Shown here piece by piece: positions 399-44,924 of a stretch of 49,511 nt of DNA. Every line of letters starts with the position of its first letter. Within the stretch, counting starts at the first letter, position 1. A program made the position numbers and the translations under genes. Source of the DNA: Bacteroidales bacterium (GTDB lineage Bacteria > Bacteroidota > Bacteroidia > Bacteroidales > UBA932); assembly GCA_017480345.1 (NCBI GenBank), contig JAFVAU010000004.1, positions 1 through 49,511 on the forward strand, in the 5' to 3' direction. Below the pieces are notes generated by a model. The model did no database searches. It saw nothing but the letters and a program-made list of their open reading frames with translations, and had not been told where the DNA came from.

Positions 399-435
399 TT
401 GTCAAAAATCAAAGTTACTTTGGCAAAATAGCAAG
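399..435 (+). promoter_or_regulatory. Candidate AraC-family operator upstream of susC (two 21-base-phased half-sites)
   Basis: Positions 399-416 read TTGTCAAAAATCAAAGTT, identical over 18 bases to 42555-42572 upstream of rhaA. A second related copy (TTGGCAAAATAGCAAG, 420-435) begins 21 bases after the first and matches it at 11 of 16 positions. The first copy starts 58 bases before a TAAATTTG -7 box here and 59 bases before the rhaA -7 box. Direct repeats phased by about two helical turns, with the downstream copy next to the -33 region, are typical of AraC-family activators (araI1/I2 is the model case). The regulator encoded at 41626-42522 is the obvious candidate to bind here (inference). 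Confidence 0.65.
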
Positions 436-456
436 AGCATTTGGCGGAGTTTTCCA

Positions 457-464
457 TAAATTTG
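457..464 (+). promoter_or_regulatory. Candidate susC promoter -7 box
   Basis: TAAATTTG fits the Bacteroidota -7 consensus TAnnTTTG. No TTG or TTTG lies 19-20 bases upstream, and the operator half-site 420-435 occupies that place, which is what an activator-dependent promoter would look like. Transcription would start near 470 and leave a leader of about 225 bases. Confidence 0.5.
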
Positions 465-546
465 CACTGTAAAACCACATAAATCACTAAAACCTCAGAT
501 TTGTTGAGCAATAAAAGGTTGGTTAATAATTGATAGGTAGGATGAA

Positions 547-600
547 GGCGGGGAAAAGTCCCCGCCGAAAGTCCTATTTCCCTTGTGGCCACCCCGGACT
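547..600 (+). other. Two hairpins in the susC mRNA leader
   Basis: GGCGGGG (547-553) pairs perfectly with CCCCGCC (560-566) around a six-base loop. Just downstream AGTCC (570-574) can pair with GGACT (596-600). Neither is followed by a T run, so these are not ordinary terminators. Leader structures are known control points for SusC transporter mRNAs in Bacteroides, but no such role can be shown here. Confidence 0.45.
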
Positions 601-695
601 GAATTGACAAAAAGAAAACAAGATTCCACACAACAATAACCTAAGCCAAAAACAATTAGTTATACCAAAACTAAACCATTAACTAACAAACCACT

Positions 696-3600
696 ATGAT
701 TTCCAAAAAACGGTTCGGATTCGCTGCCGCACTTCTGTGCATGGCAGGAGTCGTAATTGGGGGGGTAACGCCTTTGCCCAAAATCTGACAGTGCGCGGAA
801 CCGTGAGTGACGCCGTGGGCCCCATCGCGGGTGCCGTGGTGCTCTCCGGTAATGCCAATGCCGTTACGGACCTCGATGGTGCCTATACCATCAATGTCCC
901 GTCCAACGCAGTTCTCGAAGTCTCCTGCCTGGGTTACACCACGCAGCAGGTTCCGGTGAACGGACGCGCCAACATCAACATCGTCCTGGTGGAAGATGCT
1001 GAAATGCTTCAGGAGGCCGTGGCCCTGGGTTACGGTACTCAGACCAAGAAGAAAGACCTGTCCGCCTCCGTGGGTATTGTGAACAATGCCGACGAACTGG
1101 CTGCCCGCCCGGTAACTTCTGCCGAAGGAATGCTGCAGGGCCAGATTCCCGGCGTGGTCATTTCTTCCGACGGTGGCGATCCGACCAAAGACATGAACAT
1201 GATTATCCGTGGACAGGGCTCCCGCAATGGCGACAAGGTTCTGTGGGTCGTTGACGGTGTGCCCGGTGCTCCCATCACGTCCATGAACGAAATCGAGAGC
1301 ATCGTCGTCCTGAAGGACGCTGCTTCTGCCGCTATTTATGGTGCCACCTCCGGTGCCGGCGGTGTTATCATCGTCACCACCAAGAAGGCCAGCCAGGGCA
1401 TTCATGTGGAATACGACTTTGTGGGCGGTTTCCGCAGTGCTTACAACCTTCCCCAGCCGCTGGACGCCCAACAGGAAATCCAGATGCGTACTCAGTCCTA
1501 TGCCAATGCCGGTATAACCCTCCCTGTGGGCTGGGATACCTCCAAGAACCCCTGGGTAGGTGTTACCCGTACCAATTGGATGAAGGAAATCTTCCGCACG
1601 GCTCCCTATCAGCGCCACGCCGTAACCCTGAACTACGGTACCGATAAATTCAAGAGCCGCCTTACCTTCTCCTATCAGGACAACCAGGGTGTACTGGTGG
1701 GTACCTACAAAAAGGACATCGGCGTGCGCTTCAACGGCGAATACGACCTGAACAAATGGATTAAGATTACGGAAGTCATGTCCTATGACGACATGAGCGG
1801 CCGTAGCTCCGATACCGGTTCCGCCTACTCCGGCGCCATCATCTCCGCCATCTACATGCCCGCCAGCGCTGAGGCTTATGCCACGGCCGGTCCCTATGCC
1901 GGTTCATATGGCGGTGTAACGACGGAAGATCCTGCTTACATTGCACAGTATGGTAGCAACTTCGGTGACATCCACGGAGACGCCATCAACCCGCTGCGTC
2001 TGTTGCTGGCCAGCAACCAGACCCAACACGACGCAAACTTCTGGTCCACCACCGGCCTGCACATCACGCCCATCAAGGGTCTGAAATTCAGCTCCCTGTT
2101 CTCCATCAATGTGAACGATCAATTCCAAAAGACTTTCACCCCGCGCCGCCCGGAAATCGGAAAGCCGGAGACCACCAATTCCCTTGTTTATTCTACCGAG
2201 CGCGGTCCCGCATGGCGCAGTGAGAACACCCTCACCTACGACCGCACCTTTGGCAAGCACACCGTGGGCGCCCTTGCTTCTGCAACCTTCAACCGCGAGT
2301 ACAAGCAGGGATTCAAAGTTGACGCCCGCGGCCTGGAAGACGAGTCTGAGAATCTTCAGTTCCTGTCCTTCGCCAACAGCACTTCTCCCACCGACTGGTA
2401 CACCGGACCGGATGCCAATATCGCCTTCGTTGTCCGCGGCTCCTACAGCTTCGACGACCGCTACTTCGTCACCGCTTCCTGGCGCCGGGACTATGCCGGC
2501 CGTCTGCCGAAGAACCGCAACTACGGAGATTTCCCGGCCGTAACTGCCGCCTGGAAGGTTTCCAGCGAACCTTTCTTCCCCAAGAACGACATTGTGAACC
2601 TCCTCAAGGTCCGTGCTTCCTGGGGTCGCGTAGGCAACCTGGGATCCATTGACTGGAACTACCGTTCTGCCACCTTGAGCAGCAGCAACTGGAACGAAGG
2701 CGCCATCTACGGCACTGAAAACAATACCATCTGGGGAACCTTCTGGTACCCGGCCAACACCGTGAACCAGAACCTCACCTGGGAAACCTCCCAGCAGTTC
2801 GATGCCGGTCTGGACGTAGACCTCTTCAAGGACCGTCTCTCCATCTCCTTTGACTACTACAACAAGCTCACCTACAACCTTATTCAGGACCAGACCATGG
2901 GTTGGCCCCAGACCATCGGCCTCAACGCCATGAAGGTGAACCAGGGACAGATCCGCAACTCCGGTGTGGAACTCATTGCTTCCTGGCATGACAAACTGAA
3001 CAGGGACTTCTCCTATCGCGTAGGCGGAAACTTCGCTTACAACAAGAACGTGGTTGTTTCTACAGGCGTCCTTGACGACGACGGCAACCCCGGCAAGTGG
3101 ACTGGAGAAGGCGGTTTCCGTATGATTGACTGGATTTACCAGAGTGAAGCCGGCCAGCCGCTCAACTCCTTCTATGTGATCAAGACGGACGGCATTTTCC
3201 AAAGCCTGGAAGATGTCTACGATTATCAAATGGACGGCAAACTCATCCAGCCTGGTGCCCAGGCCGGAGACCTTAAGTTCGTTGACTACAACAACGACGG
3301 CAAGATTGACTCCAACGACCGCCAGTATGTGGGTTCCGCCATGCCTAAGTTCACCTATGCCCTTAACGCAGGCTTTGAATGGAAAGGCCTCTCCGTAGAC
3401 CTCCTCTTCCAGGGTGTGGCCGGCAACAAGATTGCTTATGTGGGCAAGTCCATGATTCTGGGCGATGTGGAAGGAAACTTCAACCGCAGCGCGCAGATTC
3501 TGAATGCCTGGAGCCCCACCAATACCGGTTCCTCCATTCCCCGTCTGTCCAAGAACGACCCCAACGGCAACTGGAGCACCGCCTCTGACTACTTCATCGA

Positions 3601-3835
3601 AGATGGTTCCTATCTCCGCCTGAAGAACCTCACCATCGGATATGACATCACCCGCCATCTCCAGAAACTCCCTCACTTCGCCGCCCGTAACAGCTCTTGC
3701 CGTGTATACATGAGCGCGGAGAATCTCTTTACCATCACCAAGTACACCGGCATGGACCCGGAAGTTGGCGGTTGGGACGGTCTCAAGTATCCGGTATCCC
3801 GCGTTATCGCCTTTGGTGTGAAGATTAACTACTAA
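696..3835 (+). CDS. susC: SusC/RagA-family TonB-dependent glycan transporter, apparent frameshift near N-terminus
   Basis: This is an outer-membrane beta-barrel that imports oligosaccharides with its SusD partner. After the signal peptide come a carboxypeptidase-like regulatory domain (begins NLTVRGTVSDAV), a plug with the family motif IESIVVLKDAASAAIYGA, and a long barrel ending in VIAFGVKINY. The rest of the protein is open from 737 (1032 codons), but that frame starts MHGRSRNWGG, which is not a signal peptide. The ATG at 696 encodes a good one (MISKKRFGFAAALLCMAGVV) and then runs into seven G (759-765), after which it meets TGA at 786. One extra G, or two fewer, would fuse it to the signal-peptidase-like site NAFAQ. 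So the true start is most likely 696, with a frameshift, slippage or sequencing error in the G tract. The susD gene follows at once. Confidence 0.9.
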
Positions 3836-3847
3836 TTGGAAAATTCT

Positions 3848-5506
3848 ATGAAAAAGTATATTGCTATTGCAGTTGCAGCCCTCGGCGTTCTGAATTTTTC
3901 CGCCTGTAACAAATTCCTGGATTACTCTTCACAGGGCTCTCCCACCCAAGATAACTATTTCCAGAACGACCAGCAGGCCATTGACGCCGTTGCCAGTATC
4001 TATGCCCGCCTCATTCAGGAAAACTGCATGGGCCGTGAGATGTACTGGGAGCAGGCGTGCGCCAACGACATTGTCTGGGGACGTACCCGTTCCTACCCCA
4101 CCCTTGCCACACTTAATTACACCGGTGATGAAGGCTGCCTGAGAGACGTATTCAGCGGCATCTATACCCAAGGAATTAACCGTTGTAACTGGATTGTCCA
4201 GTCTCTGCTTGACAAACAGGCGAACACCGAACTCACCCCCGTTGAAAAACGCAGTCTGGGAGAGGCTTATTTCATGCGCGGTTATTGGCACTTCCTTGCT
4301 GCCTACCGCTATGGCACCAAGGACCTGGGTGTTCCCTTCGTGGCCTATGAAACCGTTGAAGGTGGCTACAACAATGAAATTCCCGAGCAGCAGGCCACGG
4401 TGATGGACAACTACAAGCTCATCATCGCAGACCTCCAGAAGGCCGAGGAAATCCTCCCTGCCTTTGAGGAATATGATGCCGCCGACCGTGGCCGTGCCCA
4501 CAAGGCCGCAGCCGTGGCCGTCATGGCAAAAGTCTACGCTTATTGGGCCACTTGGGACAAGAGCCAGTGGGCCAATGTGATTCCCTGCGTGAACAAGCTG
4601 GAAACCACCTATGGCCGCGACCTGGCCCCCGAATTCACCGATCTCTTTGCTCCTGACTTTGATAAATTCTGGACCAAGGAGTACTGCTGGGGCTGGCCGT
4701 CCAATGGCGGACAGGCTGGCGGTGGCGGCGGTTCCATGGAACTGCCCGGCGTAATGCTTGAAAACAAAGGTTGGGGAAAATTCAATGGCTGGGGACAGTT
4801 CAAGCCCTCCTACGATATCTACGAAGAGATGCTGAAAGACGGTGCCGGTAACATACGTCTTGTTTCTTCCATCCTTGAATATGGTCAGGAATTCCAGTAT
4901 TTCGGCGAAACCCGCAAGTTCTGGTCTACCTCTGACGTAGAGGCCGGTTTCATGATCAACAAGTACATGCAGGCCTTTGCTCCGGAAGATCCCATTGGAG
5001 CCGGCTGGGTTTATGACAATGCCGACTGGCCTTGCACCCGCATCAACTGGCCCATCGTTCGCTTTGGTGATTGTCTGCTTCTGCGTGCTGAAGCATATCT
5101 GGCCACTGGCGACGCCGGTAAAGCAACCATCGACTTGAATCGTATCCGCGCCCGTGCCCATCTGGGCGCCCTTCCTGGTGTCGCCACTTGGACCGACCTC
5201 TATCATGAGCGCCGCTGCGAACTCGCCTTCGAACTTTCTTCCGATCACGCTTACGACTGCAAGCGCTGGGCTTATTCCGGCGAGGCCGAAATCAAGGCCC
5301 TGGCCCTGGCCGAGCTCAACAGCCATCCCCGTGCCCGTCATTATGAAGACCGTTCCGACCCCAACTCTGCTTTCACTGTCGGTCCTTATGAAGACTATCA
5401 GACTCCGGCCAAGGTTTGGAACGAGAAGTTCATGACCTTCCCTTATCCTTCCCAGCAGATCAGCAAGTCTGCCGGCAAACTGCAGAACCCTCCTTCCTGG
5501 AGATAA
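3848..5506 (+). CDS. susD: SusD/RagB-family glycan-binding lipoprotein
   Basis: Surface lipoprotein that forms the lid over the SusC barrel and binds the glycan. Chosen start is ATG 3848, giving MKKYIAIAVAALGVLNFSAC with the lipidated Cys at residue 20. An in-frame TTG at 3836 would only add MENS. After the Cys comes NKFLDYSSQGSP, typical of SusD N-termini. The middle carries the family's helical TPR-like part (EAYFMRGYWHFLAAYRYG), and the C-terminal third has the usual LLLRAEAYLATGD and ERRCELAFE segments. Length is 552 residues, normal for the family. It starts 12 bases after the susC stop, so the two are surely co-transcribed. Which sugar it binds cannot be told from sequence. Confidence 0.95.
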   Translation: MKKYIAIAVAALGVLNFSACNKFLDYSSQGSPTQDNYFQNDQQAIDAVASIYARLIQENCMGREMYWEQACANDIVWGRTRSYPTLATLNYTGDEGCLRDVFSGIYTQGINRCNWIVQSLLDKQANTELTPVEKRSLGEAYFMRGYWHFLAAYRYGTKDLGVPFVAYETVEGGYNNEIPEQQATVMDNYKLIIADLQKAEEILPAFEEYDAADRGRAHKAAAVAVMAKVYAYWATWDKSQWANVIPCVNKLETTYGRDLAPEFTDLFAPDFDKFWTKEYCWGWPSNGGQAGGGGGSMELPGVMLENKGWGKFNGWGQFKPSYDIYEEMLKDGAGNIRLVSSILEYGQEFQYFGETRKFWSTSDVEAGFMINKYMQAFAPEDPIGAGWVYDNADWPCTRINWPIVRFGDCLLLRAEAYLATGDAGKATIDLNRIRARAHLGALPGVATWTDLYHERRCELAFELSSDHAYDCKRWAYSGEAEIKALALAELNSHPRARHYEDRSDPNSAFTVGPYEDYQTPAKVWNEKFMTFPYPSQQISKSAGKLQNPPSWR

Positions 5507-5525
5507 CCTTTAATCTAGAGAAGTA

Positions 5526-7316
5526 ATGAAAAAAGTTATATTTGCTTTGATGGGTGTTGCCCTTATGCTGGCCTCTTGCGGCAAACAGGAGACAAGTACA
5601 CCCAATCCCTGGCGTAAGATTGTGGACTACAAACCGTCCACCTTCACGATGACGGTAGAAGGCAACGTGTCGGCCATCAATACAGACTGGATCACTATGA
5701 GCCAGTCCGGCAATACGGTTACTTTCACCACTACGCGTAACCTCACCGGCCTTATCCGCCGCGCCGAGTTCCCGGTGTCCGGTTCCAATTTCAAAGTGAT
5801 TGTGAACCAGAAGTCCGGATCCATTGACGCATCCCTCTCTTCAAGCCTGGTCTCCCAGAGCCTGGGACAGGCAACGGTCAACATCAACATTTCCACCAGC
5901 AACATAGATGACTATGAGAGCTGGGGTATCATATACGGAAAAGAGAATGACCGTTCCAAGGGGACCACTCTGCCCCAGGACGATATGTTCGTCGTGGGAG
6001 CCAACCCTGTAACCCTGACCGACCTGGAAGAAGGCGAGGACTATTACGTATGGGCCTATGTCGAAACAACGGAAGGGGACATTGTCTACACCTCCAACAC
6101 CACCGGTATCGTTCCTCCTGTCTATGTTGCTGCAGGCGATGACCTCCAGGCAGCTATCGACGGCGTTACGAAGGATTTCACGGAAGTTCGTGTTTCCGGC
6201 GACCTTGTCCACAATGGCACCCTCAAATTCACCAATCCAAAGAGCATGTCCGTGACCGGTGGTTGGAATGAAGACTTCTCCGAACAGGATATCACCAAGA
6301 AGAGTGTTATTGACGGCGGCTTCAACAAGGCCGAGGATGCCGAGGGCAATCCCTTTGATTTCCATAAAGCCGAATGCCGCAGCAAGTCGTTCGTGAGCAC
6401 CAACAATGGCAGCTGTGCCGTTGTCATCGGCAGCTTCACGGCCCCCCTGAAGTCCACTCTGACCATCAACAACTTCGAAATCCGCAACGGTTTCGACGAC
6501 AATGACGGCGGCGCCATGCAGATTGCTACTACAGGGAATGTCAATATTGACAACTGCTACATCCACGACTGCCATTCCAACCACCGCGCCGGTGGTCCCA
6601 TGAATGTCCAGAATGTGGACGGTGGAAGCATCGTGTTCAGCAACACCATCATCAAGGACTGCTCCACTAAGGAGCACGGCGGCGCCTTCTCCGTTGAAGA
6701 GGCCGATGTTACCTGGGTTATGGTGAACTGCCTCATCGAGGGTAACGTGTCCCGCAATGGCGGCGGTTACTGCGGTGTGGCAATGATTTACAACAAGACC
6801 AAATTCTACGCCATCAACAACACCATCGTCAACAATTACAACTTTGACGAAGGCGGTACTCCTCCCGACGGTCGTAACGAATGGTCTATCATGCACTCCC
6901 GCGATGGAGGCCAGGGTCAGGAATATGTCATGATCAACAACCTCATCGTTGGCAATTACTCCTGGTGCAGCACTGACGACCTGCCTTATCCTCAGTATTA
7001 CAACGTGGCCGTCAACTGCGCGTCCAATCCGCTTGTAACCGTGGACGTCCGTAACAACATGATCTGCGGAGGATTCTGGAAGGATGGTAGCGCTGCCCTG
7101 AACAGCAAGAATACGGTTGTTGCATCCGGTCTGGATATCACCACTATCTTCAACGATCCGGCCAACATGGACTTCAGTCCCAAGGGCAGCGCCGTTGGAG
7201 CCGGAGTCTATGACAGCGTTGTCTCCGCCATCCTGGGCAACTACACCAAAGATCTGGCCGGCAATCCCCGTACGGTAGACGGAAAAATTGACCTGGGCTG
7301 CTATCAGTCCAAGTAA
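5526..7316 (+). CDS. Beta-helix lipoprotein in the surface glycan-binding position
   Basis: A 596-residue lipoprotein (signal MKKVIFALMGVALMLASC, Cys 18). Residues about 35-105 look like a small beta-sandwich, about 105-200 like an Fn3-type domain (ESWGIIYGKEND ... YYVWAYVETTEGD), and from about 205 to the end it has the repeating NNTIVNNY, DNCYIHDCHSNHRAGG pattern of a right-handed parallel beta-helix ending GKIDLGCYQ, as in pectin-lyase-fold and choice-of-anchor proteins. It lies 19 bases after susD and before the terminator, where SusCD operons usually carry a surface glycan-binding protein. It might instead be a lyase or hydrolase of the beta-helix fold. I see no recognisable catalytic motif, so binding is the more cautious guess. 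Confidence 0.75.
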   Translation: MKKVIFALMGVALMLASCGKQETSTPNPWRKIVDYKPSTFTMTVEGNVSAINTDWITMSQSGNTVTFTTTRNLTGLIRRAEFPVSGSNFKVIVNQKSGSIDASLSSSLVSQSLGQATVNINISTSNIDDYESWGIIYGKENDRSKGTTLPQDDMFVVGANPVTLTDLEEGEDYYVWAYVETTEGDIVYTSNTTGIVPPVYVAAGDDLQAAIDGVTKDFTEVRVSGDLVHNGTLKFTNPKSMSVTGGWNEDFSEQDITKKSVIDGGFNKAEDAEGNPFDFHKAECRSKSFVSTNNGSCAVVIGSFTAPLKSTLTINNFEIRNGFDDNDGGAMQIATTGNVNIDNCYIHDCHSNHRAGGPMNVQNVDGGSIVFSNTIIKDCSTKEHGGAFSVEEADVTWVMVNCLIEGNVSRNGGGYCGVAMIYNKTKFYAINNTIVNNYNFDEGGTPPDGRNEWSIMHSRDGGQGQEYVMINNLIVGNYSWCSTDDLPYPQYYNVAVNCASNPLVTVDVRNNMICGGFWKDGSAALNSKNTVVASGLDITTIFNDPANMDFSPKGSAVGAGVYDSVVSAILGNYTKDLAGNPRTVDGKIDLGCYQSK

Positions 7317-7344
7317 TCGGCCAACAATTTGTATGGCTTTTAGT

Positions 7345-7376
7345 CAGGGCGACCCATCACGGGCCGCCCTGTTTTT
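7345..7376 (+). terminator. Rho-independent terminator after the susCD operon
   Basis: CAGGGC (7345-7350) pairs with GCCCTG (7366-7371), with CCC/GGG pairing inside, and five T follow. It separates the susCD unit from the hicAB genes. Its sequence is nearly the same as that of the leftward terminator at 274-307. Confidence 0.85.
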
Positions 7377-7504
7377 ATGCAAAAATCGAAAGAAACACAC
7401 AAAAAGCATGTAAAACAACACAATCTTTTTTACGATTGTTGTATTTCCCATGTCCTGTATTTATGTTTGCTGCTAAAGATATCCGTCAAATTATAGGAGG
7501 ATAT

Positions 7505-7535: not shown

Positions 7536-7544
7536 TAACGCAGC

Positions 7545-7727
7545 ATGAAATACACGGAACTGGAAAGACTGCTGAGAAAAGCCGGTTGCTATTTAGTAAG
7601 GAACGGTGACCATCCTATATGGTACAGTCCCATTAGTGAAAAGGAATTTGCTACTGGACACCATGACACTCATGAAGTTAACCCGAAAACCCTCAACAAG
7701 ATTCTAAAATCGGCCGGACTAAAGTAA
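7545..7727 (+). CDS. hicA: HicA family mRNA interferase toxin
   Basis: A 60-residue protein with the dsRBD-like HicA fold: helix-forming start (KYTELERLLRKAGCYLV), the strand with the catalytic His in RNGDHPIWYSP (His 23), and the terminal LNKILKSAGLK helix. HicA toxins cleave mRNA and tmRNA independently of or at the ribosome until bound by HicB (family knowledge). The gene is 9 bases upstream of the matching hicB. Toxin-first order is usual for this family. Base composition is visibly lower in GC than the surrounding enzyme genes, in line with a mobile toxin-antitoxin module. Confidence 0.9.
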   Translation: MKYTELERLLRKAGCYLVRNGDHPIWYSPISEKEFATGHHDTHEVNPKTLNKILKSAGLK

Positions 7728-7736
7728 GAATGAGTT

Positions 7737-8138: not shown

Positions 8139-8144
8139 AAAACT

Positions 8145-8176
8145 TTTGTTTTTCAAGCCCCCTTTTGTTAAATTTG
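8145..8176 (+). promoter_or_regulatory. Promoter of the large glycosidase operon
   Basis: TTTG (8145-8148), 20 bases, TAAATTTG (8169-8176) is a near-perfect Bacteroidota promoter just after hicB. An AAAGGAGGG-like purine stretch follows before the ATG at 8226, a stronger Shine-Dalgarno than most in this window. The shared operator sequence seen at 399 and 42555 is absent at the equivalent distance. Confidence 0.75.
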
Positions 8177-8225
8177 TGAGAATAACACTAATTCTCTGCC
8201 AAAAAACAAAGGAGGGTTCACAAAA

Positions 8226-14541: not shown

Positions 14542-14545
14542 ACCC

Positions 14546-17233: not shown

Positions 17234-20733
<3,500 letters not shown>

Positions 20734-20734
<1 letters not shown>

Positions 20735-21633: not shown

Positions 21634-21642
21634 CAGATAATT

Positions 21643-23832: not shown

Positions 23833-23881
23833 AGCGTGAAATGTAAATAACTGGCAATTAATTAAATACGAAAAACCTCCT

Positions 23882-25324: not shown

Positions 25325-25334
25325 TTGCAAGGAT

Positions 25335-26885: not shown

Positions 26886-26890
26886 CTTTT

Positions 26891-33904: not shown

Positions 33905-33936
33905 ACACTTCGTTTTTTGGCACATCACTTTCATTC

Positions 33937-33976
33937 TTGCGCTTTCTTTCAGGAAGAAGGCGCAATATTTTTTTTT
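33937..33976 (+). terminator. Strong Rho-independent terminator after the GH92-GH9 operon
   Basis: TTGCGCTTTCTT (33937-33948) pairs with AAGAAGGCGCAA (33954-33965) over 12 base pairs including one G-T, with a five-base loop, and is followed by TA and nine T. It cleanly ends the 25.7 kb operon. Confidence 0.9.
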
Positions 33977-33991
33977 CCGCAAAGGAATTGC

Positions 33992-33999
33992 TAAATTTG
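33992..33999 (+). promoter_or_regulatory. Candidate promoter -7 box for the phosphatase-GH92-GH78 operon
   Basis: TAAATTTG matches TAnnTTTG and lies 24 bases before ATG 34024. The place of the -33 element is occupied by the T run of the terminator just upstream, so the upstream half is weak. An activator or an alternative sigma factor may be needed. Confidence 0.5.
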
Positions 34000-34023
34000 G
34001 GAGTAAACCTAATAACCAAGATA

Positions 34024-35580
34024 ATGAAGAAATTCATCCTGGCCGCAGCGGCCGCTCTGCTCGCTTTGATTTCCTGCACCAAGGGGGACGACGATCCCCG
34101 TCTGGTTATCATCACCTTCGACGGCCTGCGCTGGCAGGAACTGTTCTCAGGGGCCGATGAAGGCCTGGTGGGAGACACCCGCTTTGTCAAAGATCCCGAA
34201 GCCCTGAAGGCGGCCTATTGGCGCGATACGCCCGAAGCCCGCAGGGAAGCCCTGATGCCCTTTGTCTGGAGCTATGTGCCGCAGCATGGTTATTTTCTTG
34301 GCAACCGGGAAAAGAACAGCCTCATGCAGGTGGCCAACGACAAGAACTTCTCCTACCCCGGATACAGCGAAATGTTCTGCGGTTATCCGGACGACGAGCG
34401 CATTGGCAGCAACGACCCCGTTCCCAATCCCAACCACAGCGTGCTGGAGGCCGTCAACGCAGACCCTCGCTACAAGGGCAGCGTGATGATGCTCTCCTCC
34501 TGGGAGTCCATCCGCTTTGCCGTAAATAACGAGCGCGGCGGTTTCCCGGGCAGCAGCGCCCATGAGCCGCTCTATATAGAAACCGCCATGAGCACGCTCC
34601 TGCAGGAGATTGACAAGCACCTGCCGGGCTTCGGCGGAGGCGAAAGGGCAGACTTCATTACGGCCGCCTTCGCCCTGGAAACCCTGAAGGAAGCGCATCC
34701 CAAGGTGTTCTACGTGGGTTTTGGAGACACGGACGAATTCTCCCACGCCGGGGAGTATGACAAGTATCTGGAGGCTACCCACTGGACGGACGGCTTCATC
34801 CGCCGCATCGTAGAAAGCTGCGAGGCAGACCCTTTCTACAAGGGAAAGACCACCTACATCCTCACCTGCGACCACGGCCGTGGCCGCGGTGCCGGCTTCC
34901 AGTCCCACGGGGCCGATGTAAGGGGCTCCAACCAGACCTGGTTCATCGCCTTTGGAAAGGGCGTGCCCGTGCTGGGAGAAACCAAGGACAACGGCATCTT
35001 CTACACCAAGCAGTTCGCCGCCACCATCGCAGACATCCTGGGTGTGGAGTTCACTCCGGACAATGGGCAGAAGTGCGAGCCCTTCGACCCTGCCTACTAC
35101 AAAGAGCCCGAAGCCCCCAAGGCCTTGGCCAGCTTTGAAGCGGTAAAGGATGCCAAACCCAAGGGGAAAGGCCTCCGCTACACCTATGCGGAGGGTGACT
35201 TCATGAGCGTAGTACCCATGCTGAGCACCCCCGTGAAGGCCCGCGGCATAGCCCCCGTACTGTCCACCGGCATGAAACTGCGCGAGGACCACTTCGGCCT
35301 GGTGTTCAAGGGCCTGGTGAAAGTACCCGAGGACGGCCTGTACCTCCTCTCGCTGGCCTCTGACGACGGTTCCAAACTCTTCTGGGACGGGCAGCTCCTC
35401 TGGGACGTAGACCGGGACGGCGGCGGCTTCAGGGAAGGCTGGTACCAGCTCACGGCCGGCTACCACCGGATAGAACTGCAATATTTTGAGAATTACGGCG
35501 GAGAAAATATAGAGATTGGCCTTACCGGCCCGGGCGTGGATGTGGAGAATCTCCCCGCAGACATGCTCTTCTATGAATAG
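34024..35580 (+). CDS. Alkaline-phosphatase-superfamily lipoprotein with PA14 domain
   Basis: A 518-residue lipoprotein. ATG 34024 is chosen because it begins MKKFILAAAAALLALISC (Cys 18); the longer frame from 33937 would start inside the terminator. Residues about 25-370 are an alkaline-phosphatase-superfamily domain: LVIITFDGLRWQELF (metal Asp), a nucleophile region around NFSYPGYSEMFCGYPDD, GFGDTDEFSHAGEYD, and TCDHGRGRGAGFQSHG. Residues about 375-518 are PA14, nearly the same type as on the GH3 at 14546, with DDGSKLFWDG and DRDGGG loops that usually bind calcium and sugar. After the Cys comes TKGDDD, an acidic stretch like Bacteroidota lipoprotein export signals, so surface display is plausible. 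Combining PA14 with a phosphatase suggests a phosphorylated glycan substrate (inference). Confidence 0.85.
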   Translation: MKKFILAAAAALLALISCTKGDDDPRLVIITFDGLRWQELFSGADEGLVGDTRFVKDPEALKAAYWRDTPEARREALMPFVWSYVPQHGYFLGNREKNSLMQVANDKNFSYPGYSEMFCGYPDDERIGSNDPVPNPNHSVLEAVNADPRYKGSVMMLSSWESIRFAVNNERGGFPGSSAHEPLYIETAMSTLLQEIDKHLPGFGGGERADFITAAFALETLKEAHPKVFYVGFGDTDEFSHAGEYDKYLEATHWTDGFIRRIVESCEADPFYKGKTTYILTCDHGRGRGAGFQSHGADVRGSNQTWFIAFGKGVPVLGETKDNGIFYTKQFAATIADILGVEFTPDNGQKCEPFDPAYYKEPEAPKALASFEAVKDAKPKGKGLRYTYAEGDFMSVVPMLSTPVKARGIAPVLSTGMKLREDHFGLVFKGLVKVPEDGLYLLSLASDDGSKLFWDGQLLWDVDRDGGGFREGWYQLTAGYHRIELQYFENYGGENIEIGLTGPGVDVENLPADMLFYE

Positions 35581-38407
35581 GAAACATCTGCTGCTGAGCC
35601 TTTTAGCGCTGGCCCTCCTCTCCTGTACGGGAAACCGGGGGCCGGCGGATTTCGTTCATGTGTTCAACGGGACAGACCTGGCCGGGAACACTTATCCGGG
35701 GGCCACGGTGCCCTTCGGCGCCGTGCAGTTGAGCCCGGACACGGAGGGGGAAAGCGCCTCCGGTTACCGCTATGCCCATAAGCAAATCCTGGGCTTCAGC
35801 CACACCCACCTTTCGGGAACCGGCTGCCCGGACTTCGGGGATTTCCTGGTAACGCCGGGCATAGACAGCGTGGGGCCCCTGCCCCTTTTGCACGAGAACG
35901 AAAAAGCCTCTCCGGGCTACTACAAGATTGTTTTTCCGGAGCAGGGCATCACGGCGGAACTTACCGCCTGGAACCGCTCCGGCATGCACCGCTATACCTT
36001 CAAGGGGCCGGGCAAAAGGCTCATCCGCGTAGATGCCTGTCATTCGGTGGGCGGCTGGTGCCATCCCACGGATGTGTCGCTGAAGGTAATCGGTGGGGAA
36101 CTCGTAGGCTTCCGGCAGGTGGACGGCTGGGCCTCCGGACGCAAGAGTTTCCTGTCGGCCGTTTTCTCGGAGCGCTTTGAGGATGCCTTGGAGGAGGCTC
36201 CCGGCGTCATGCTGTTCAGCTTCCCGGAAGACGTGAAGGAGGTTACCCTCTGCGCCGGCCTTTCCGGCGTGGGTTCCGAAGGAGCCTGGGCCAACCGCAT
36301 GGCCGAGACCTCCGAAACAGACTTTGACAGCGCCGTCAGGCGGGCATCGGCCCGATGGAACGAAGCCCTGGGCGCCATTGAGGTGAAGGGCGGCCCGGCC
36401 GATGTCTTCTATACCAACTTCTACCATACCATCCTCACGCCCAACCGTTTGGAAGATGTGGACGGCCGCTATCCGGACCAGAAGGGCTATATCCGGCAGG
36501 TGGCCGGAGGCCGGCATTTCTATTCCACCCTCTCCCTCTGGGACACCTTCCGGGCCTGGCATCCGCTGCAAACCCTCCTGGACACCGCCATGGTAGCCGA
36601 TATGGTGCGCAGCATGCTGGAAGACTACGACTGCCGGGGAGAACTGCCCATCTGGCCGCTGGCCAACGACGAAACCGGCTGCATGATAGGCTACCACAGC
36701 GTTTCCGTGATAGCAGACGCCTGGCTCCGCGGCATCCGGGATTTTGACGGAGAGAAGGCCCTGGAGGCCATGATAGTCTCCTCCAACAAGAACAACGCCA
36801 ACGCCTCGGAGCTGTACAACTCCTACGGCTACATCCCGGCCGACATGAAGATAGAAACCGTGTCCCAGACCCTGGAGTTCTGCTATGACGACTGGTGTAT
36901 CGCCCGCATGGCGGAAGCCCTGGGGCACAGTGACATTGCGGCGGAATATGACGCCCGTTCCCTCCGCTACCGCGCTCTCTTCGACCCCAACACCGGTTTC
37001 ATGCGCGGCAAGAACACGGACGGCAACTGGACGGAACCCTTTGACCCGCTCACCGGTTCCCGTGACTATACGGAGGCCATCCCCTGGCACTACCGCTTCT
37101 TCATGCCGCACGACATGGCCGGCATGGAGGCCCTGCTGGGCGGCCGGGAAGGCCTGTACGGAGCCCTGGATTCCCTCTTTACCTATACGCCGGAGAGCCA
37201 AAAAGTGCTGGACAAGGACATTGGCGGCATCCTGGGCCAGTATGCCCACGGCAACGAGCCCGGCCACCACATGCCCTGGCTGTTCAACTGGGCGGGCGCC
37301 CCTTCCCGCACCCAGGAAACGGTGCGCACCATCCTTACGCAGATGTACACCACCGCCCCGGGCGGCCTCTGCGGCAACGAGGACTGCGGCCAGATGGGCG
37401 CCTGGTACGTTCTGGGGGCCCTGGGAATCTATCCCGTCTGCCCCGGAAGCGGCGAATATCAGCTCACAGCCCCGCTCTTCAAGGAAGCCAAAATCCATCT
37501 GGCGGGCGGCAAAACGCTCACCATCCGGGCCGACAAACCGCAGTACGCCTACATAGACGAAGTTAGCCTGAACGGAAAACCCGTGGAACAGCACTTCCTC
37601 ACCTACGACGAAATCATGGGCGGCGGGGAGCTGCGCTTCCGCCTGTCGGCCAGGCCTTCCCACAAACGGGATGCACTGCCGGCCCCCTACTCCCTGACGA
37701 AGGAGCCTCTGGTGTCTCCTCCGGCCATTCTGGGGCAGCTGATGCTTTTCCCGGAAAGCGCTGAAGTCCAGCTGGTTTCCCGCACCGAAGGGGCCTCTAT
37801 CCACTATACCCTGGACGGCAGCGAGCCCACGGAGGCCAGCCCACTCTATACAGAGCCCTTCCGTATTGGCCAGTCGTGTGTGCTGAAGGCCCGGGCTTTC
37901 AAGGAGGGCCTGCCGCCGTCTCCCGTCACCACCCGGACGGCCCACAAGCTGTTTTTCCACCCGGCAGAGAACCTTCGCGGGCTCCGGCCGGGATGCCGCT
38001 ACACCTACCACGAGGCCAACTTCGTGCTCATCGGCCAAATTGAAAGCGACCCTCCGGAGGCATCCGGCGTCATGCGGGAACCCTCCATTGCCGGTGCGGC
38101 CGCCGAGGACCACTTTGCCTATGCCTTCACGGGCTTCATCGATATCCCCGAAAGCGGCATCTGGCAATTCCACACCACCAGTGACGACGGCAGCGCGCTG
38201 TACATCGACGGGGTGTGCGTGGTGAACAACGACGGCTCCCACTCCAGGAGCATGGCAGAGGGCAAGCTTCCCCTGGAAAAGGGCCTGCATCCGTACAAGC
38301 TCCTTTACTTCGAAGACTACGAAGGCCAATCCCTCGAATGGGGCTGGAAGGCTCCCGGAAAGGCCGATTATACCCCCATCCCCGCATCCAGCCTGTTCTA
38401 CAAATGA
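35573..38407 (+). CDS. GH92 family alpha-mannosidase with CHB_HEX_C and PA14 domains (second copy)
   Basis: A 944-residue lipoprotein (MNRKHLLLSLLALALLSC, Cys 18). ATG 35573 is preferred over 35516, which lies inside the phosphatase gene. Domain order equals the 8226 enzyme: beta-sandwich (VHVFNGTDLAGNTYPGAT), (alpha/alpha)6 domain with HGNEPGHHMPWLFNW and GNEDCGQMGAWYVLGALG, Ig-like IHYTLDGSEPTEASPLYTEP and C-terminal PA14. The two are clear paralogues but have diverged throughout, for example in an insertion around DGRYPDQKGYIRQVAGG (about 300), close to the active site, so they may cut different alpha-mannosidic linkages. The start overlaps the phosphatase stop by 8 bases (ATGAATAG), the same arrangement as GH106-GH9. 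Confidence 0.93.
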   Translation: MNRKHLLLSLLALALLSCTGNRGPADFVHVFNGTDLAGNTYPGATVPFGAVQLSPDTEGESASGYRYAHKQILGFSHTHLSGTGCPDFGDFLVTPGIDSVGPLPLLHENEKASPGYYKIVFPEQGITAELTAWNRSGMHRYTFKGPGKRLIRVDACHSVGGWCHPTDVSLKVIGGELVGFRQVDGWASGRKSFLSAVFSERFEDALEEAPGVMLFSFPEDVKEVTLCAGLSGVGSEGAWANRMAETSETDFDSAVRRASARWNEALGAIEVKGGPADVFYTNFYHTILTPNRLEDVDGRYPDQKGYIRQVAGGRHFYSTLSLWDTFRAWHPLQTLLDTAMVADMVRSMLEDYDCRGELPIWPLANDETGCMIGYHSVSVIADAWLRGIRDFDGEKALEAMIVSSNKNNANASELYNSYGYIPADMKIETVSQTLEFCYDDWCIARMAEALGHSDIAAEYDARSLRYRALFDPNTGFMRGKNTDGNWTEPFDPLTGSRDYTEAIPWHYRFFMPHDMAGMEALLGGREGLYGALDSLFTYTPESQKVLDKDIGGILGQYAHGNEPGHHMPWLFNWAGAPSRTQETVRTILTQMYTTAPGGLCGNEDCGQMGAWYVLGALGIYPVCPGSGEYQLTAPLFKEAKIHLAGGKTLTIRADKPQYAYIDEVSLNGKPVEQHFLTYDEIMGGGELRFRLSARPSHKRDALPAPYSLTKEPLVSPPAILGQLMLFPESAEVQLVSRTEGASIHYTLDGSEPTEASPLYTEPFRIGQSCVLKARAFKEGLPPSPVTTRTAHKLFFHPAENLRGLRPGCRYTYHEANFVLIGQIESDPPEASGVMREPSIAGAAAEDHFAYAFTGFIDIPESGIWQFHTTSDDGSALYIDGVCVVNNDGSHSRSMAEGKLPLEKGLHPYKLLYFEDYEGQSLEWGWKAPGKADYTPIPASSLFYK

Positions 38408-39042
38408 CAACACGGAGGCTGAAATATCTGCTGGTGGCTTTGTTAGCCCTGCTTTTCCCCCTGAGTCTGCAGGCACAGGAGGCCCAGGAAGACAATACCT
38501 TCGGCGGCTGGGAGTTTTTGGAAGTCTCCCACGACTTTGGCAACAGCCCCGTCTTCGCCTCCATCTACTTCGAGCACGACAACTTCCAGTACAAGCGCCT
38601 GGACAACTGGTATGTGCGCACCACCGTGGGCGTGAAAATCCTCCCCTGGCTCAAGGCCGATGTGGCCTATGACTTCCTGAAAGAGCCCGGCAGCTATTCC
38701 CACAGGGCGGTTTTCGACCTCACCGGCACCCTGAAACAGGGGAATCTGAAAGCGAGCCTCCGGGAAAGGTACATCCATATCTGGACCCCGACTTCCGGCA
38801 CGCAGGGCAATGTGCTCCGCTCCATGCTCAAAGTGCAGTATGACATTCCCGACTCCCGTTTCAGCCCTTATGTGGCCATAGAAGTGTTTACCTGGGAGGG
38901 CTGGAAGAAAACCCGTCACTATGTGGCCTGCTGCTACAACTTTTCCAAGCTGGTCCAGCTGGAAGCCTATTATTTGTACTATACCTTCAACAACCGCCCG
39001 GCGGAGCATGTGCTGGGTATCGGCCTTAATTTTAAAATATAA
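38404..39042 (+). CDS. DUF2490-like outer-membrane beta-barrel protein
   Basis: A 212-residue protein with a signal peptide (RLKYLLVALLALLFPLSLQAQ). ATG 38404 overlaps the GH92 stop as ATGA; earlier in-frame ATGs lie within the GH92 gene and are not credible. The mature part is made of alternating-residue strands (VRTTVGVKILPWLKADVAYD, LRERYIHIW, VLGIGLNFKI), with a terminal aromatic/hydrophobic strand as in small outer-membrane barrels, matching DUF2490 proteins in pattern. Function is unknown. Its place between an alpha-mannosidase and an alpha-rhamnosidase suggests passage or surface handling of a released product. It could equally be a barrel with no transport role. Confidence 0.7.
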   Translation: MTTRRLKYLLVALLALLFPLSLQAQEAQEDNTFGGWEFLEVSHDFGNSPVFASIYFEHDNFQYKRLDNWYVRTTVGVKILPWLKADVAYDFLKEPGSYSHRAVFDLTGTLKQGNLKASLRERYIHIWTPTSGTQGNVLRSMLKVQYDIPDSRFSPYVAIEVFTWEGWKKTRHYVACCYNFSKLVQLEAYYLYYTFNNRPAEHVLGIGLNFKI

Positions 39043-39045
39043 ACC

Positions 39046-41622
39046 ATGAAAAAATTATCGATTGTTTTAGCCCTGGCCGCCATCGTAGCCTGCACCCCCA
39101 AGGCGGTGGACAGCACCGACCTTCCGCTGGTTCCGGCCCTGGACAACCAGGCCTGGGACGCCTCCGAGTGGATTTCCGTAGTGAACTGCGAAGTTGTAAG
39201 AGGAAGAGACGCTTACAAGAGCGCTCCTGGCGCCAGTTGGTTCCTGAGCACCGTCACCAACGAGAAGAAGGTGGCCAAAGCCGTGTGGATGACCGCCGGC
39301 CTGGGCGTCTACGACCTCTTTGTGAACGGGCAGCTGGTGGGCAGCGAGGTGCTCAAGCCCGGTTTCACGCACAATGCCAAGACCAAACGTTCCTTCACCT
39401 ATGACATCACCGACATCTTCACCACCAAGGCCGGAGCCCGGAACATCCTTTCCGCCCAGGTAACGCCCGGCTGGTGGGCCGACAAAATCGTGACCAACGG
39501 CGGTGACGGCTTCGTAGGCCGCAAATGCGCCTTCCGCGGCGTCCTGGAGCTCACCTATGCCGACGGCAGCGTGACCCGTCTGGGGACCGACACAGAGCAC
39601 TGGACGGCCGGTATCGCCGGCCCGGTGACGCACGCCGGCATCTTTGACGGCGAGGAGTACGACGCCCGCATCCCGATGGGCTTCGAGACGCCCGAAAAGC
39701 TCACCACCCCCGAGGTGAACACCGAGTTCAAGGGTGAAATCCTTCCCACCTGCGGCGCAGAAATCTACCAGCGTGAAGACCTCAAGCTCCACCCCGCCCA
39801 AATCTATGTCTGGAAGGGCGTTACCGGAGCCGTTGAGTCCGAAAACAAGGACGATGTGGAATACGGCAAGGTGAACATCCTGCGCGAATACAAGGACGGG
39901 GAGCCGGTTGAACTGAACCCCGGCGAAACCCTGGTGGTGGACTTCGGCCAGAATGCCGCCGCCGTGCCTTCCTTCGTATTCAAGGCCGATGAGGGCACTT
40001 ACCTGGAGTGCAACCCTTCCGAAATCCTGAACGACGGCAACGGCGCCGAGCGCCGCGGTATGGACGGCCCCGAGGGCAGCACGCACCGCCGCAACCTGCG
40101 CGTGGACCCGGGCGAAATCTGGCTCACCTACACCTTCGGCCCTTCCGCCGACTTCGTGAGCTTCCAGCCCCGCGCCTCCTTCTGGGGCTACCGCTACATT
40201 GCCCTGACGGCCAGTGCCCCCGTGACCTTCCGCTCCATCGCTTCCGTTCCGGTTACCTCCATCTCCGAAAAGATGGAGGCCGGCACCATCACCACCGGGA
40301 ACGAACTAATTAACAAACTCATTTCCAACACCGTATGGGGCATGCGCTCCAACTACCTCTCCGTGCCCACCGACTGCCCGCAGCGCAACGAGCGCCTGGG
40401 CTGGATGGCGGATACGCAGGTGTTCGCCGAGACGGGCACTTTCTTTGCCAACACGGACGCCTTCTTCCACAAATGGCTCAAGGACGTGCGCGACAGCCAG
40501 CACCCCAGCGGCGGTTATCCGGGCGTCTCCCCCTTCGCCCAGTATGGCAACGAGGCCATGCGCCTGGGCTGGGCCGATGCCGGCATCATCGTCCCCTGGA
40601 CCGTCTGGAAGCAGTTCGGAGACATCTCCATCGTAAAGGAAAGCTGGGAATCCATGGAAAAATTCATGGACCACGTGAATGCCAACAAGTATGACCATGT
40701 GGCCTTGGCCGGAGAAAGCGGCAATTACCAGTGGGCCGACTGGCTCAGCTACGAAGACCTGGAGAGCTGCAGCGGACGGGCCTTCCTGCCCGGGGGCAAG
40801 CGCAAACCCGAATCCATCGAATACTGGAGCTATCTGAGCGCCTGCTACTGGGCCCTCGATGCGGGTTACATGCGGGACATGGCCGCATCGGCCGGCCTGG
40901 ACGCCGCCAAGTACGAGGCCATGGAAAAAGAGGCCAAGGCCTACCTGAAAGAGCGTTTCCTGAAGGCCGACGGCAGCTTCAGGCTGCCCATCCTGAACAC
41001 CATGCAGACCCCGGCTCTCTTCGCCCTCAAGCTGGGCCTGGTGGAAGGGGCCGCCAAGGAGGCCACCTGCGTGCGCCTGCGCAAGAACTTCGAAGACCAC
41101 GGCAACTGCCTGCAAACCGGCTTCCTGGGCACTTCCATCCTCATGTCCACCCTCACGGAGAACGGCATGGTGGATATGGCCTACGAGCTCCTCTTCCAGC
41201 GCAAGAACCCCAGCTGGCTGTATTCCGTGGACAACGGCGCCACCACCATCTGGGAACGCTGGAACAGCTATATGGTGGACAAGGGCATGGGGCCCAACGG
41301 CATGAACAGCTTCAACCACTACGCCTATGGCGCCGTGTGCGAATGGCTGTGGGAAACGGCCGCCGGCATTGCCTGCGAGCCCGCCGCCCCCGGCTTTAAG
41401 AAGATTGTGATGAAACCCGTCCCGGACAAGCGCCTGGGCCATCTGGAGGCCTCCTACATGAGTGCCGCCGGCCTCATCAAGAGTGCCTGGAAGTATGAAG
41501 GAGACAAGTGGGTGTGGACCTTCACCGTCCCGGAGGGCGCATCGGCCATGGTAACCCTGCCCGGGCAGACGGACTCCAAGGAATACGCTGCCGGAACCTA
41601 TACGGAAACGGCGAAACTGTAA
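39046..41622 (+). CDS. GH78 alpha-L-rhamnosidase, lipoprotein
   Basis: An 858-residue lipoprotein (MKKLSIVLALAAIVAC, Cys 16). Two N-terminal beta-sandwiches (KAVWMTAGLGVYDLFVNGQ is the rhamnosidase N-domain) precede the (alpha/alpha)6 barrel. The barrel has the GH78 signature TDCPQRNERLGWMADTQ (about 441-457), where most members have GWTGD or GWMGD; the Gly to Ala change is conservative. GATTIWERWNSY and the C-terminal beta-sandwich (EASYMSAAGLIKSAWKYEGD) complete the fold. It hydrolyses terminal alpha-L-rhamnose with inversion. Adjacent to the rha regulator and catabolic operon, this is the enzyme most directly tied to rhamnose supply. Its stop lies 3 bases from the stop of the convergent araC gene. 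Confidence 0.95.
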   Translation: MKKLSIVLALAAIVACTPKAVDSTDLPLVPALDNQAWDASEWISVVNCEVVRGRDAYKSAPGASWFLSTVTNEKKVAKAVWMTAGLGVYDLFVNGQLVGSEVLKPGFTHNAKTKRSFTYDITDIFTTKAGARNILSAQVTPGWWADKIVTNGGDGFVGRKCAFRGVLELTYADGSVTRLGTDTEHWTAGIAGPVTHAGIFDGEEYDARIPMGFETPEKLTTPEVNTEFKGEILPTCGAEIYQREDLKLHPAQIYVWKGVTGAVESENKDDVEYGKVNILREYKDGEPVELNPGETLVVDFGQNAAAVPSFVFKADEGTYLECNPSEILNDGNGAERRGMDGPEGSTHRRNLRVDPGEIWLTYTFGPSADFVSFQPRASFWGYRYIALTASAPVTFRSIASVPVTSISEKMEAGTITTGNELINKLISNTVWGMRSNYLSVPTDCPQRNERLGWMADTQVFAETGTFFANTDAFFHKWLKDVRDSQHPSGGYPGVSPFAQYGNEAMRLGWADAGIIVPWTVWKQFGDISIVKESWESMEKFMDHVNANKYDHVALAGESGNYQWADWLSYEDLESCSGRAFLPGGKRKPESIEYWSYLSACYWALDAGYMRDMAASAGLDAAKYEAMEKEAKAYLKERFLKADGSFRLPILNTMQTPALFALKLGLVEGAAKEATCVRLRKNFEDHGNCLQTGFLGTSILMSTLTENGMVDMAYELLFQRKNPSWLYSVDNGATTIWERWNSYMVDKGMGPNGMNSFNHYAYGAVCEWLWETAAGIACEPAAPGFKKIVMKPVPDKRLGHLEASYMSAAGLIKSAWKYEGDKWVWTFTVPEGASAMVTLPGQTDSKEYAAGTYTETAKL

Positions 41623-41625
41623 CGT

Positions 41626-42522
41626 CTATTTCTTCCGCGGACGGCCGCCCTGGGTGAGTTCACGGTATTCCATGGGCGTCATCCCGGCCATCCGGCGGAA
41701 GGCCGTAAAGAAATAATCCTCATTCTCGTACCCCATCTCGTAGGCCACCTGCTTGATGGGGAGCGAGGTATTTGTGAGCATCTCCTTGGTGCGGTGGATG
41801 CGGATTTGCTGGATATACTGGGACGGGGCCAGGCCGGTGTACTCCTTGAAAATGCGCCGGAAATTGGAATAGCCCAGGCACAGCTGCCGGGACAGGTCTT
41901 CCGGGGAGATGGTGCGGAACTGCTCGGCAATGAGGATCTTGGCCCGGTTCATCTTGTCGGCCACCTCGGAGAAGTCCTCGTTGCGGCGGTAATACCATGC
42001 CAGGCTCATCAGATGGGCCACCACGCCGGACAGACGCTGCTGGAAACCCGCCCGCTGTTCCCGGGCCGTCTCAATGGCATCCGTGTACAAGTCCACGATG
42101 TCGCTGTGAAGGCCGATATTCCAGAGCGGACTCTCCTTGGAGAAGAAACCGTTTTTCACCCACTCCTGAATCTGGTTGCCCTTGAAACCTATCCAGTACT
42201 CCTTCCAGCCGGTGGCCGGGTCCGGGGCGTAGCTGTGCCATTCTCCGGGAAACAGCAGGAAGAGGCTTCCCTGTTTGATGGCAAGCGGGTGCGGAAGGGA
42301 GGCGCTGCGGAACCGGCCCCGGCCCTGGGTGATATACAACAGCTGGTATTCGTCCAGGACGCGGCCGTTCTTTTCCGAGAACAGATAACGGGAGGGATGG
42401 CTGGACGGCGGATAAGGCTCTCCGGGAGCCACATCCTGAAATCCAAGCGAATTCACGGCCATGCCCCACAACTGGTCATTGGGGCCGATGGTAAGGTATT
42501 TCAGGTGAATATCTTCGTTCAT
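41626..42522 (-). CDS. AraC-family transcriptional activator, probable rhamnose regulator
   Basis: A 298-residue regulator. The start at 42522 (MNEDIHLKYLTIGPNDQLWG) fits the family better than the ATG at 42561, which would place coding sequence over the candidate operator. The N-terminal half is a cupin-like effector domain (HPSRYLFSEKNGRV, YQLLYITQGRGRF, LFPGEWHSYAPD, GWKEYWIGFKG). The C-terminal 100 residues hold two HTH motifs (LSRQLCLGYSNFRRIFKEYT and IKQVAYEMGYENEDYFFTAF). It diverges from rhaA across 130 bases that contain the operator sequence shared with susC. By position it corresponds to the Bacteroides rhamnose regulator often called RhaR. L-rhamnose or rhamnulose as effector is inference. 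Confidence 0.88.
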   Translation of the reverse strand: MNEDIHLKYLTIGPNDQLWGMAVNSLGFQDVAPGEPYPPSSHPSRYLFSEKNGRVLDEYQLLYITQGRGRFRSASLPHPLAIKQGSLFLLFPGEWHSYAPDPATGWKEYWIGFKGNQIQEWVKNGFFSKESPLWNIGLHSDIVDLYTDAIETAREQRAGFQQRLSGVVAHLMSLAWYYRRNEDFSEVADKMNRAKILIAEQFRTISPEDLSRQLCLGYSNFRRIFKEYTGLAPSQYIQQIRIHRTKEMLTNTSLPIKQVAYEMGYENEDYFFTAFRRMAGMTPMEYRELTQGGRPRKK

Positions 42523-42554
42523 AAGGCGTATTTCTGCGCAATAATAAGAAATCT

Positions 42555-42591
42555 TTGTCAAAAATCAAAGTTCTGGTGCCATAATGTGAAT
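42555..42591 (+). promoter_or_regulatory. Candidate AraC-family operator upstream of rhaA
   Basis: Positions 42555-42572 are identical to 399-416 upstream of susC. The stretch 42577-42590 (TGCCATAATGTGAA) resembles the second susC half-site at exactly the same offset, 9 of 14 positions. The upstream copy contains CTTTG...CAAAG arms. The downstream copy touches the -33 TTG at 42591, as expected for an activator contacting RNA polymerase. It lies between the divergent araC and rhaA genes and could also serve autoregulation. Confidence 0.65.
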
Positions 42592-42621
42592 TGGAAAGAA
42601 GAGCATAAATCGGTATCTTTG
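42591..42621 (+). promoter_or_regulatory. rhaA promoter
   Basis: TTG (42591-42593), 20 bases, TATCTTTG (42614-42621) fits the Bacteroidota promoter. Transcription from about 42628 leaves a leader of about 25 A/C-rich bases before ATG 42653. Confidence 0.7.
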
Positions 42622-44919: not shown

Positions 44920-44924
44920 ATACT

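Follow-up and report, generated by a model that had tools for sequence, protein, structure and literature searches.

A putative RhaR operator shared by a rhamnose operon and a SusC-SusD importer unit in a Bacteroidales genome

The 49,511-nt contig JAFVAU010000004.1 of an uncultured gut Bacteroidales bacterium (GTDB lineage UBA932; GenBank assembly GCA_017480345.1), analysed over its whole length and called here the window, carries the rhamnose operon rhaATBD, the divergent gene of the AraC-family regulator RhaR and a large polysaccharide utilization locus with the importer genes susC and susD. The same operator stands in front of rhaA and in front of susC, and a single RhaR most likely acts at both promoters, as judged from the sequence comparisons given below. 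In the explanation that we favor, with a probability of roughly 80%, RhaR would be an activator with cytoplasmic L-rhamnose or an intermediate as its effector, and its binding site would be a 21-base-spaced direct repeat, the right half of which overlaps the -33 region of the two promoters. One promoter would drive rhaATBD and the other susC, susD and a lipoprotein gene of the locus, which also encodes GH106 and GH78 enzymes, so that released rhamnose would turn on its own breakdown together with the importer of the rhamnose-carrying glycan, in a positive feedback loop. The imported glycan probably contains rhamnose; binding by RhaR, rhamnose as the effector and activation as the effect are what we infer from the comparison of related genomes.

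The occurrence of the twin operators exceeds chance. Their left half-sites are identical over 18 bases, as the preliminary description of this DNA had claimed, and even over 19 bases if the preceding position (398/42554) is counted. That description had also named many unrelated genomic copies of the 18-mer as a finding that would speak against a common regulator, and in the 2,220,095 bases of the source genome (G000; 46 contigs, completeness 91%, contamination 5%) there are two exact copies only. Three sites are found if up to 3 mismatches are allowed; the third one (contig C15, 3 mismatches) has no promoter context, adjoins a gene read as a recombinase, and was taken as chance. The distances of 58 and 59 bases from the left half-site to the -7 boxes TAAATTTG (susC) and TATCTTTG (rha) proved correct as well. 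A second half-site had been proposed in both copies, and it holds for the susC copy, in which the two halves agree at 11 of 16 positions with an offset of 21; in the rha copy no internal repeat of at least 60% identity was found, and its right half is visible only against a matrix built from relatives (6.4 bits, plus-strand rank 19). The right half-site falls at the expected -33 box, and at susC no TTTG stands at the customary distance from the -7 box.

The matrix comprises 24 of 57 rha-promoter rows of relatives, i.e. those in the close-RhaR group whose mismatches do not exceed 5, with the row of the window excluded (effective number 17.2); gene calls in the relatives were codon-scored. Three rows with close RhaR were dropped, namely L179 (9 mismatches), L069 (10 mismatches; its site is found in front of a rhamnosidase gene further upstream) and L092 (8 mismatches; the start is miscalled and the site is seen in L012), and the other 29 rows have more distant RhaR. 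The sequence TAnnTTTG, which played no part in the choice of rows, occurs at 58 or 59 in all 24 matrix promoters. The scan of the window (~99,000 positions on both strands) placed the site at 399 first (38.1 bits) and that at 42555 second (36.1 bits), with the next at 2.7 bits, the bulk of the score coming from the left half. In the 24 promoters the similarity of the left and right halves, compared at offsets 8–31, peaks at 21 (2.24; 1.88 at 20 and 1.81 at 19), in agreement with the direct repeat of 21-base period reported for the Bacteroides AraC-type rhamnose regulator (PMC3870299). The peak is modest because the right half is weak.

The operator and RhaR co-occur across the genus. If up to two mismatches are tolerated, the 18-mer has 69 sites in 51 of 200 genus genomes, and the reversed pattern, used as a control in the same genomes, has 10 sites in 9. 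Restricting this to no more than 1 mismatch leaves 19 sites. The 14 genomes that carry them all belong to the 16 in which RhaR identity reaches at least 60%, and the other 184 genus genomes have no such site (hypergeometric probability of the overlap 1e-19, with kinship ignored). Ten of the 19 sites lie at the rha operon and four at a rhamnosidase gene (GH106 in G134, G139 and G140, the last by BLAST only, and GH78-like in G116), which makes 14 of 19 near-exact sites before rha operons or rhamnosidase genes. Two more are at the susC locus (G000, and G121 at a distance of 1.65 kb) and three are elsewhere: amid unrelated genes in G024, and reversed upstream of a XylR-type gene in G125 and G153. 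The site in G024 (L082:6643) has 1 mismatch and a right half and no -7 box, and is flanked by transketolase and PIG-L/glucosamine isomerase genes.

Two further genomes bear on the importer promoter. G201 (RhaR 88%, SusC 78%) conserves both the rha and the susC promoter; before its susC there are the operator with 1 mismatch, the right half CTTTGGCAAAATAGCAAGA, identical to that of the window, a -7 box at 59 and a conserved leader. Alistipes montrealensis kh20 (L248) suggests, by its sequence, an independent case of a RhaR operator before an unrelated susCD pair: its rhaBATD is preceded by rhaR (54%), which is divergent from a susC-susD pair that was confirmed by Pfam and whose SusC is only 27% alike that of the window, and the susC operator TTGTCAAAAAACAAAGTA is accompanied by the right half GTGTCAAAATCA at offset 21 and by TACATTTG at 58 (32.9 bits). 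Taken together, the shared operator, its co-occurrence with RhaR, G201 and Alistipes argue that RhaR most likely activates the susC-susD-lipoprotein unit and rhaATBD together. A stringent promoter pattern, derived from the window sites and fixed at 19 bases, is specific but would miss variants and is no gauge of frequency; it was matched in 2 of 393 order-level genomes, i.e. in the window (twice) and in G388, where the match precedes a 490-aa gene without a Pfam match.

A number of observations weigh against joint control by RhaR or limit it, above all those made upstream of susC in relatives. The susC of this locus was found in 34 genomes (24 of the 200 from the genus, 9 of 16 reached via RhaR loci, and G200, a fragment), and its upstream region is readable in 31 of them, being cut off in G125, G151 and G024; the strand-aware check covered 25 regions from 21 of the 24 genus genomes plus the 9 genomes, with L109, L123, L124, L127 and L128 too short. 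A direct, same-strand site with at most 2 mismatches precedes susC in only 3 of the 31 (G000, G201 and G003). The preliminary description had named its disappearance from close relatives that still have the locus as a refutation; measured by this, RhaR control of this susC would be limited to a few lineages. The G003 site (2 mismatches) lacks a -7 box at 58/59, and what stands there is a terminator-like hairpin; in G121 and G204 susC lies 1.65 kb downstream of the full promoter, and the gene of a 388-aa XylR-type protein comes between them; and in G200, which has the nearest RhaR (90%), the XylR-type gene precedes susC, and even with 3 mismatches allowed there is no site nearby. G200 and G201, the two genomes closest to the window in RhaR, differ at this point; the order of genes is 530-aa gene, XylR-type gene and susC in G200, and 530-aa gene (peptidase C69), RhaR operator and susC in G201. 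Relatives of the XylR-type regulator are present in 17 of the 34 susC genomes. To the same side belong the site before GH106 in G134, without a -7 box at 58/59, and the best match upstream of the Alistipes rhaB, which scores 1.5 bits, so that sharing of the site by the Alistipes rhamnose operon itself is not shown. Within the window, the susC right half-site scores -3.4 bits alone (plus-strand rank 667), and the contig, of which the window is the entirety (C1), begins 398 bases ahead of the operator. The SusC frame is broken in the assembly: the signal-peptide ATG (696) is out of frame with the body ORF (737–3835), with the shift at a seven-G run (759–765), which may be an assembly error or a length-variable tract; G201, G121, G204 and G003 have a single-frame ORF starting at the signal-peptide ATG. 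Finally, the run of enzyme genes is under its own promoter without the operator and is separated from susC-susD-lipoprotein by a terminator, and the operator at 399 would therefore directly cover these three genes and not the enzymes. The proposal that one AraC-type protein governs glycan import and rhamnose breakdown thus has good comparative support, with its scope reduced to the importer unit.

Several other sites before susC were discounted, those with 3 mismatches in G205a and G208 for want of the right half and of the -7 spacing (11.6 and 10.2 bits) and those with 2 mismatches in G036 and G005 for being on the opposite strand. In G207 a single neighborhood (L291:1770-14692) contains rhaR, rhaBATD, an oxidoreductase, GDPD, susC and susD, and links rhamnose catabolism with the importer.

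The strongest alternative, although an unlikely one, is that the susC operator is a relic that once served, e.g., a short leader RNA, and that another regulator, perhaps encoded before base 1, drives susC. The cut of the contig 398 bases upstream leaves room for such a gene, the susC of G200 does without the operator, and in G121 and G204 a hairpin and a XylR-type gene in convergent orientation come after the same promoter and leader, with the inverted repeat attributed to that regulator upstream of susC. However, the operator, the -7 box and their spacing are intact in the window and in G201, no regulator gene or XylR-type repeat lies between operator and susC, and the Pfam scan of 7 G201 genes upstream of susC revealed as the only regulator a sigma-54-type activator ~6.6 kb away. 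This activator adjoins lptE-like and secG genes, and one of the seven scanned genes has no Pfam match.

The 388-aa protein combines Peripla_BP_3 (a LacI-like sensor) with HTH_18 (the AraC helix-turn-helix (HTH)), which is the layout of XylR. Its relatives with at least 49% identity are distributed over 12 of the 24 genus genomes, 4 of the 9 reached via RhaR and G200, with G121 and G204 counted among the carriers; none was found in the window genome or in G201 at E up to 1e-60, and G003 has a 39% paralogue only. An inverted repeat, TTTTGCG...TACGCAAAA, which is presumably the operator of this regulator, occurs at the susC promoters of L108, L110, L113, L115, L116 and L132, with similar ones in G121, G204 and G200. 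As half of the relatives possess the XylR-type regulator, the lineages differ in the regulator of this importer, which has probably been exchanged, to judge from these comparisons. A strict either/or exchange was considered and dropped, as 14 of the 34 genomes (G005, G012, G024, G036, G083, G108, G114, G130, G138, G193, G205, G207, G208 and G213) lack a direct RhaR site as well as any XylR-type relative of at least 49% identity, G012, G108 and G138 among them having one of 46%. In the SusC tree G000 stands apart from G201 with moderate support (85/91). Because of this placement and of the 14 genomes without either mark, we claim no either/or rule and no direction or number of changes. Reversed RhaR-like sites are found ~120–140 bases upstream of the XylR-type gene in G153 (L070:8091), G125 (L073:6589) and G209 (L290:323); they adjoin TTTGCGC repeats, and G153 and G125 are nearly identical there. 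Cross-control of one regulator by the other at these three sites is possible.

Downstream of the operator, the window, G201, G121 and G204 share a leader with GTTGGTTAAT...ATAGGT followed by a GC-rich hairpin. In the window its predicted fold is somewhat better than that of shuffled sequences (z of -2.2, with 6 of 200 shuffles folding as well). Rfam, searched at E up to 1, gave no matching family, and 3 of the 5 matches to the leader pattern among 200 genomes are unrelated. The hairpin of G121 includes a T-run, that of the window does not. A function of the leader is possible. Speculatively, the importer might have passed from the XylR-type regulator to RhaR by exchange of a promoter-plus-leader cassette, with the leader as a regulatory RNA that would tune susC or, in G121 and G204, the rival regulator. 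These two genomes, in which both operators are present and a RhaR-driven leader with its hairpin heads towards the XylR-type gene, would then be intermediates. We regard this scenario as doubtful. At L066:9614-9860 and L288:7807-7990 a full RhaR promoter seemingly precedes a short leader RNA only, followed by a hairpin, and points towards the 3' end of a XylR-type gene.

It is very unlikely that RhaR binds both sites as a repressor, or that its effector is not rhamnose. The direction of control and the effector in the favored explanation are deduced from sequence, reversed sites do occur upstream of the XylR-type gene in G125, G153 and G209, and a B. thetaiotaomicron rhaR deletion strain still grows on rhamnose (PMC11669328). 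Against repression speak the right half-site at the -33 position together with the lack of TTTG at the usual -7 spacing at susC, as well as the B. thetaiotaomicron RhaR, which has been described as an activator (PMC3870299, citing Patel 2008) and the overexpression of which raises the rha cluster (PMC11669328). Use of the susC site by another AraC-type protein or a hybrid two-component regulator with a similar motif, and not by RhaR, is likewise very unlikely, given that the site equals the rha operator over 19 bases and that near-exact copies occur in 14 of 16 close-RhaR genomes vs 0 of 184 others.

Among known systems, RhaR of the window resembles published descriptions of the B. thetaiotaomicron RhaR (BT3768), likewise an AraC-family regulator of a rhamnose operon, for the group of which the direct repeat with 21-base periodicity has been described (PMC3870299). 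The RhaR and FucR regulons have been reported to comprise one target operon each (PMC3878776), whereas the operator of the window also precedes susCD and that of the genus also precedes GH106 and GH78-like rhamnosidase genes. By the latter, the RhaR regulon seems to extend beyond the one operon reported in Bacteroides. Such rhamnosidase genes behind the operator are seen in other species of the genus (L068, L069, L077, L083 and L088). The NCBIfam models of the E. coli RhaR and RhaS give the window protein scores far below their cut-offs, and the search of the PDB with it yielded no close relative, the matches being AraC-type DNA-binding domains and one AraC-type sensor (BgaR).

The principle of one monosaccharide regulator over a catabolic operon and SusCD is already known from the Bacteroides AraR (BT0354), which responds to sugar in the cytoplasm and has been predicted to govern both arabinose catabolism and SusC-SusD loci (PMC4666351). 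AraR, however, is a member of the NrtR family and arabinose lowers its DNA affinity, and hybrid two-component regulators take part in the control of several of its loci (PMC4666351), whereas no such regulator is seen in the window. The window regulator belongs to the AraC family and would therefore be a functional counterpart of AraR from another protein family. The relatives' 388-aa regulator has the domain layout of XylR from E. coli and of the Vibrio XylRA, an activator that runs a xylan locus; that locus differs in having ABC and MFS transporters and not SusCD (PMC12125979). In the literature searched by titles and abstract starts, no report of RhaR control of susCD was recognised. In gut Bacteroidota the choice of importer is usually attributed to outer-membrane or periplasmic sensing of oligosaccharides (PMC3878776); here, unlike in that scheme, rhamnose, the end product, would be sensed in the cytoplasm, and this sensor would most likely control the importer itself. 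Relatives in which the same importer stands beside another regulator provide natural variants for the question why a locus changes its regulator, and the rule of operator plus 58/59-base spacing could predict rhamnose-controlled genes in uncultured species.

Table 1. Features of the window, in positions of the contig
Feature	Position	Strand	Remarks
RhaR operator (putative) ahead of susC	399..437	+	conserved left half-site 399-416; weaker right half-site 420-437, offset 21
-7 box TAAATTTG, susC promoter	457..464	+	58 bases from left half-site
Leader element GTTGGTTAATAATTGATAGGT, then GC-rich hairpin (547-554/559-566)	518..566	+	common to G201, G121, G204
susC, TonB-dependent importer	696..3835	+	body ORF 737-3835, Pfam SusC
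susD	3836..5506	+	Pfam SusD_RagB, SusD-like_3
Probable surface glycan-binding lipoprotein, last in susC unit	5526..7316	+	named by position alone
Intrinsic terminator closing the susC-susD-lipoprotein unit	7345..7376	+	CAGGGCG...CGCCCTG then TTTTT; read directly
Enzyme-run promoter TTTG-N20-TAAATTTG	8145..8176	+	without RhaR operator
Co-oriented enzyme run	8226..41622	+	Pfam
Enzyme run, first part		+	GH92, alkaline-phosphatase-like, GH63-like, GH3, GH2, phosphodiesterase, GH3, GH43 x2
Enzyme run, second part		+	unknown, GH106, GH9, metalloenzyme/PA14, GH92, DUF2490, GH78
rhaR, AraC-family regulator	41626..42522	-	Pfam AraC_binding + HTH_18
RhaR operator (putative) ahead of rhaA	42555..42593	+	left half-site 42555-42572; right half-site region from 42576
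-7 box TATCTTTG, rha promoter	42614..42621	+	59 bases from left half-site
Rhamnose operon: rhaA isomerase, rhaT symporter, rhaB-type FGGY kinase, rhaD-type class II aldolase	42653..47136	+	Pfam

The genes of the window were assigned by a Pfam scan of 28 ORFs (E up to 0.001), 3 of which remained without any match. The AraC-type gene beside rhaA, which the preliminary description had recognized, was confirmed in this way, with AraC_binding (6.8e-16) as the ligand-binding domain and HTH_18 (2.2e-24) as the C-terminal AraC-type HTH; the gene is divergent from rhaATBD in the window and adjoins rhaB or rhaA in many relatives. No histidine kinase, sigma or anti-sigma domains were found in the 28 ORFs (from base 1 on). 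The preliminary description had suggested that the AraC-type protein replaces a hybrid two-component or sigma/anti-sigma system; what stands at this locus in 17 of the 34 genomes is no such system and is itself a XylR-type protein with an AraC domain. The susC-susD pair and the linked carbohydrate-active enzymes, among them the GH106 and GH78 proteins, identified by Pfam as rhamnosidases, make the region a polysaccharide utilization locus. The lipoprotein behind susD has no Pfam or NCBIfam match, and proteins resembling it come after susD in several relatives. The susCD unit is followed, ahead of the enzyme run, by a gene for a HicA-type toxin (Pfam PF07927) and, behind it, one for an HTH protein, which shows a weak HTH_3 match only and is by position a probable HicB-like partner; this stretch (7545–8138) has its own promoter.

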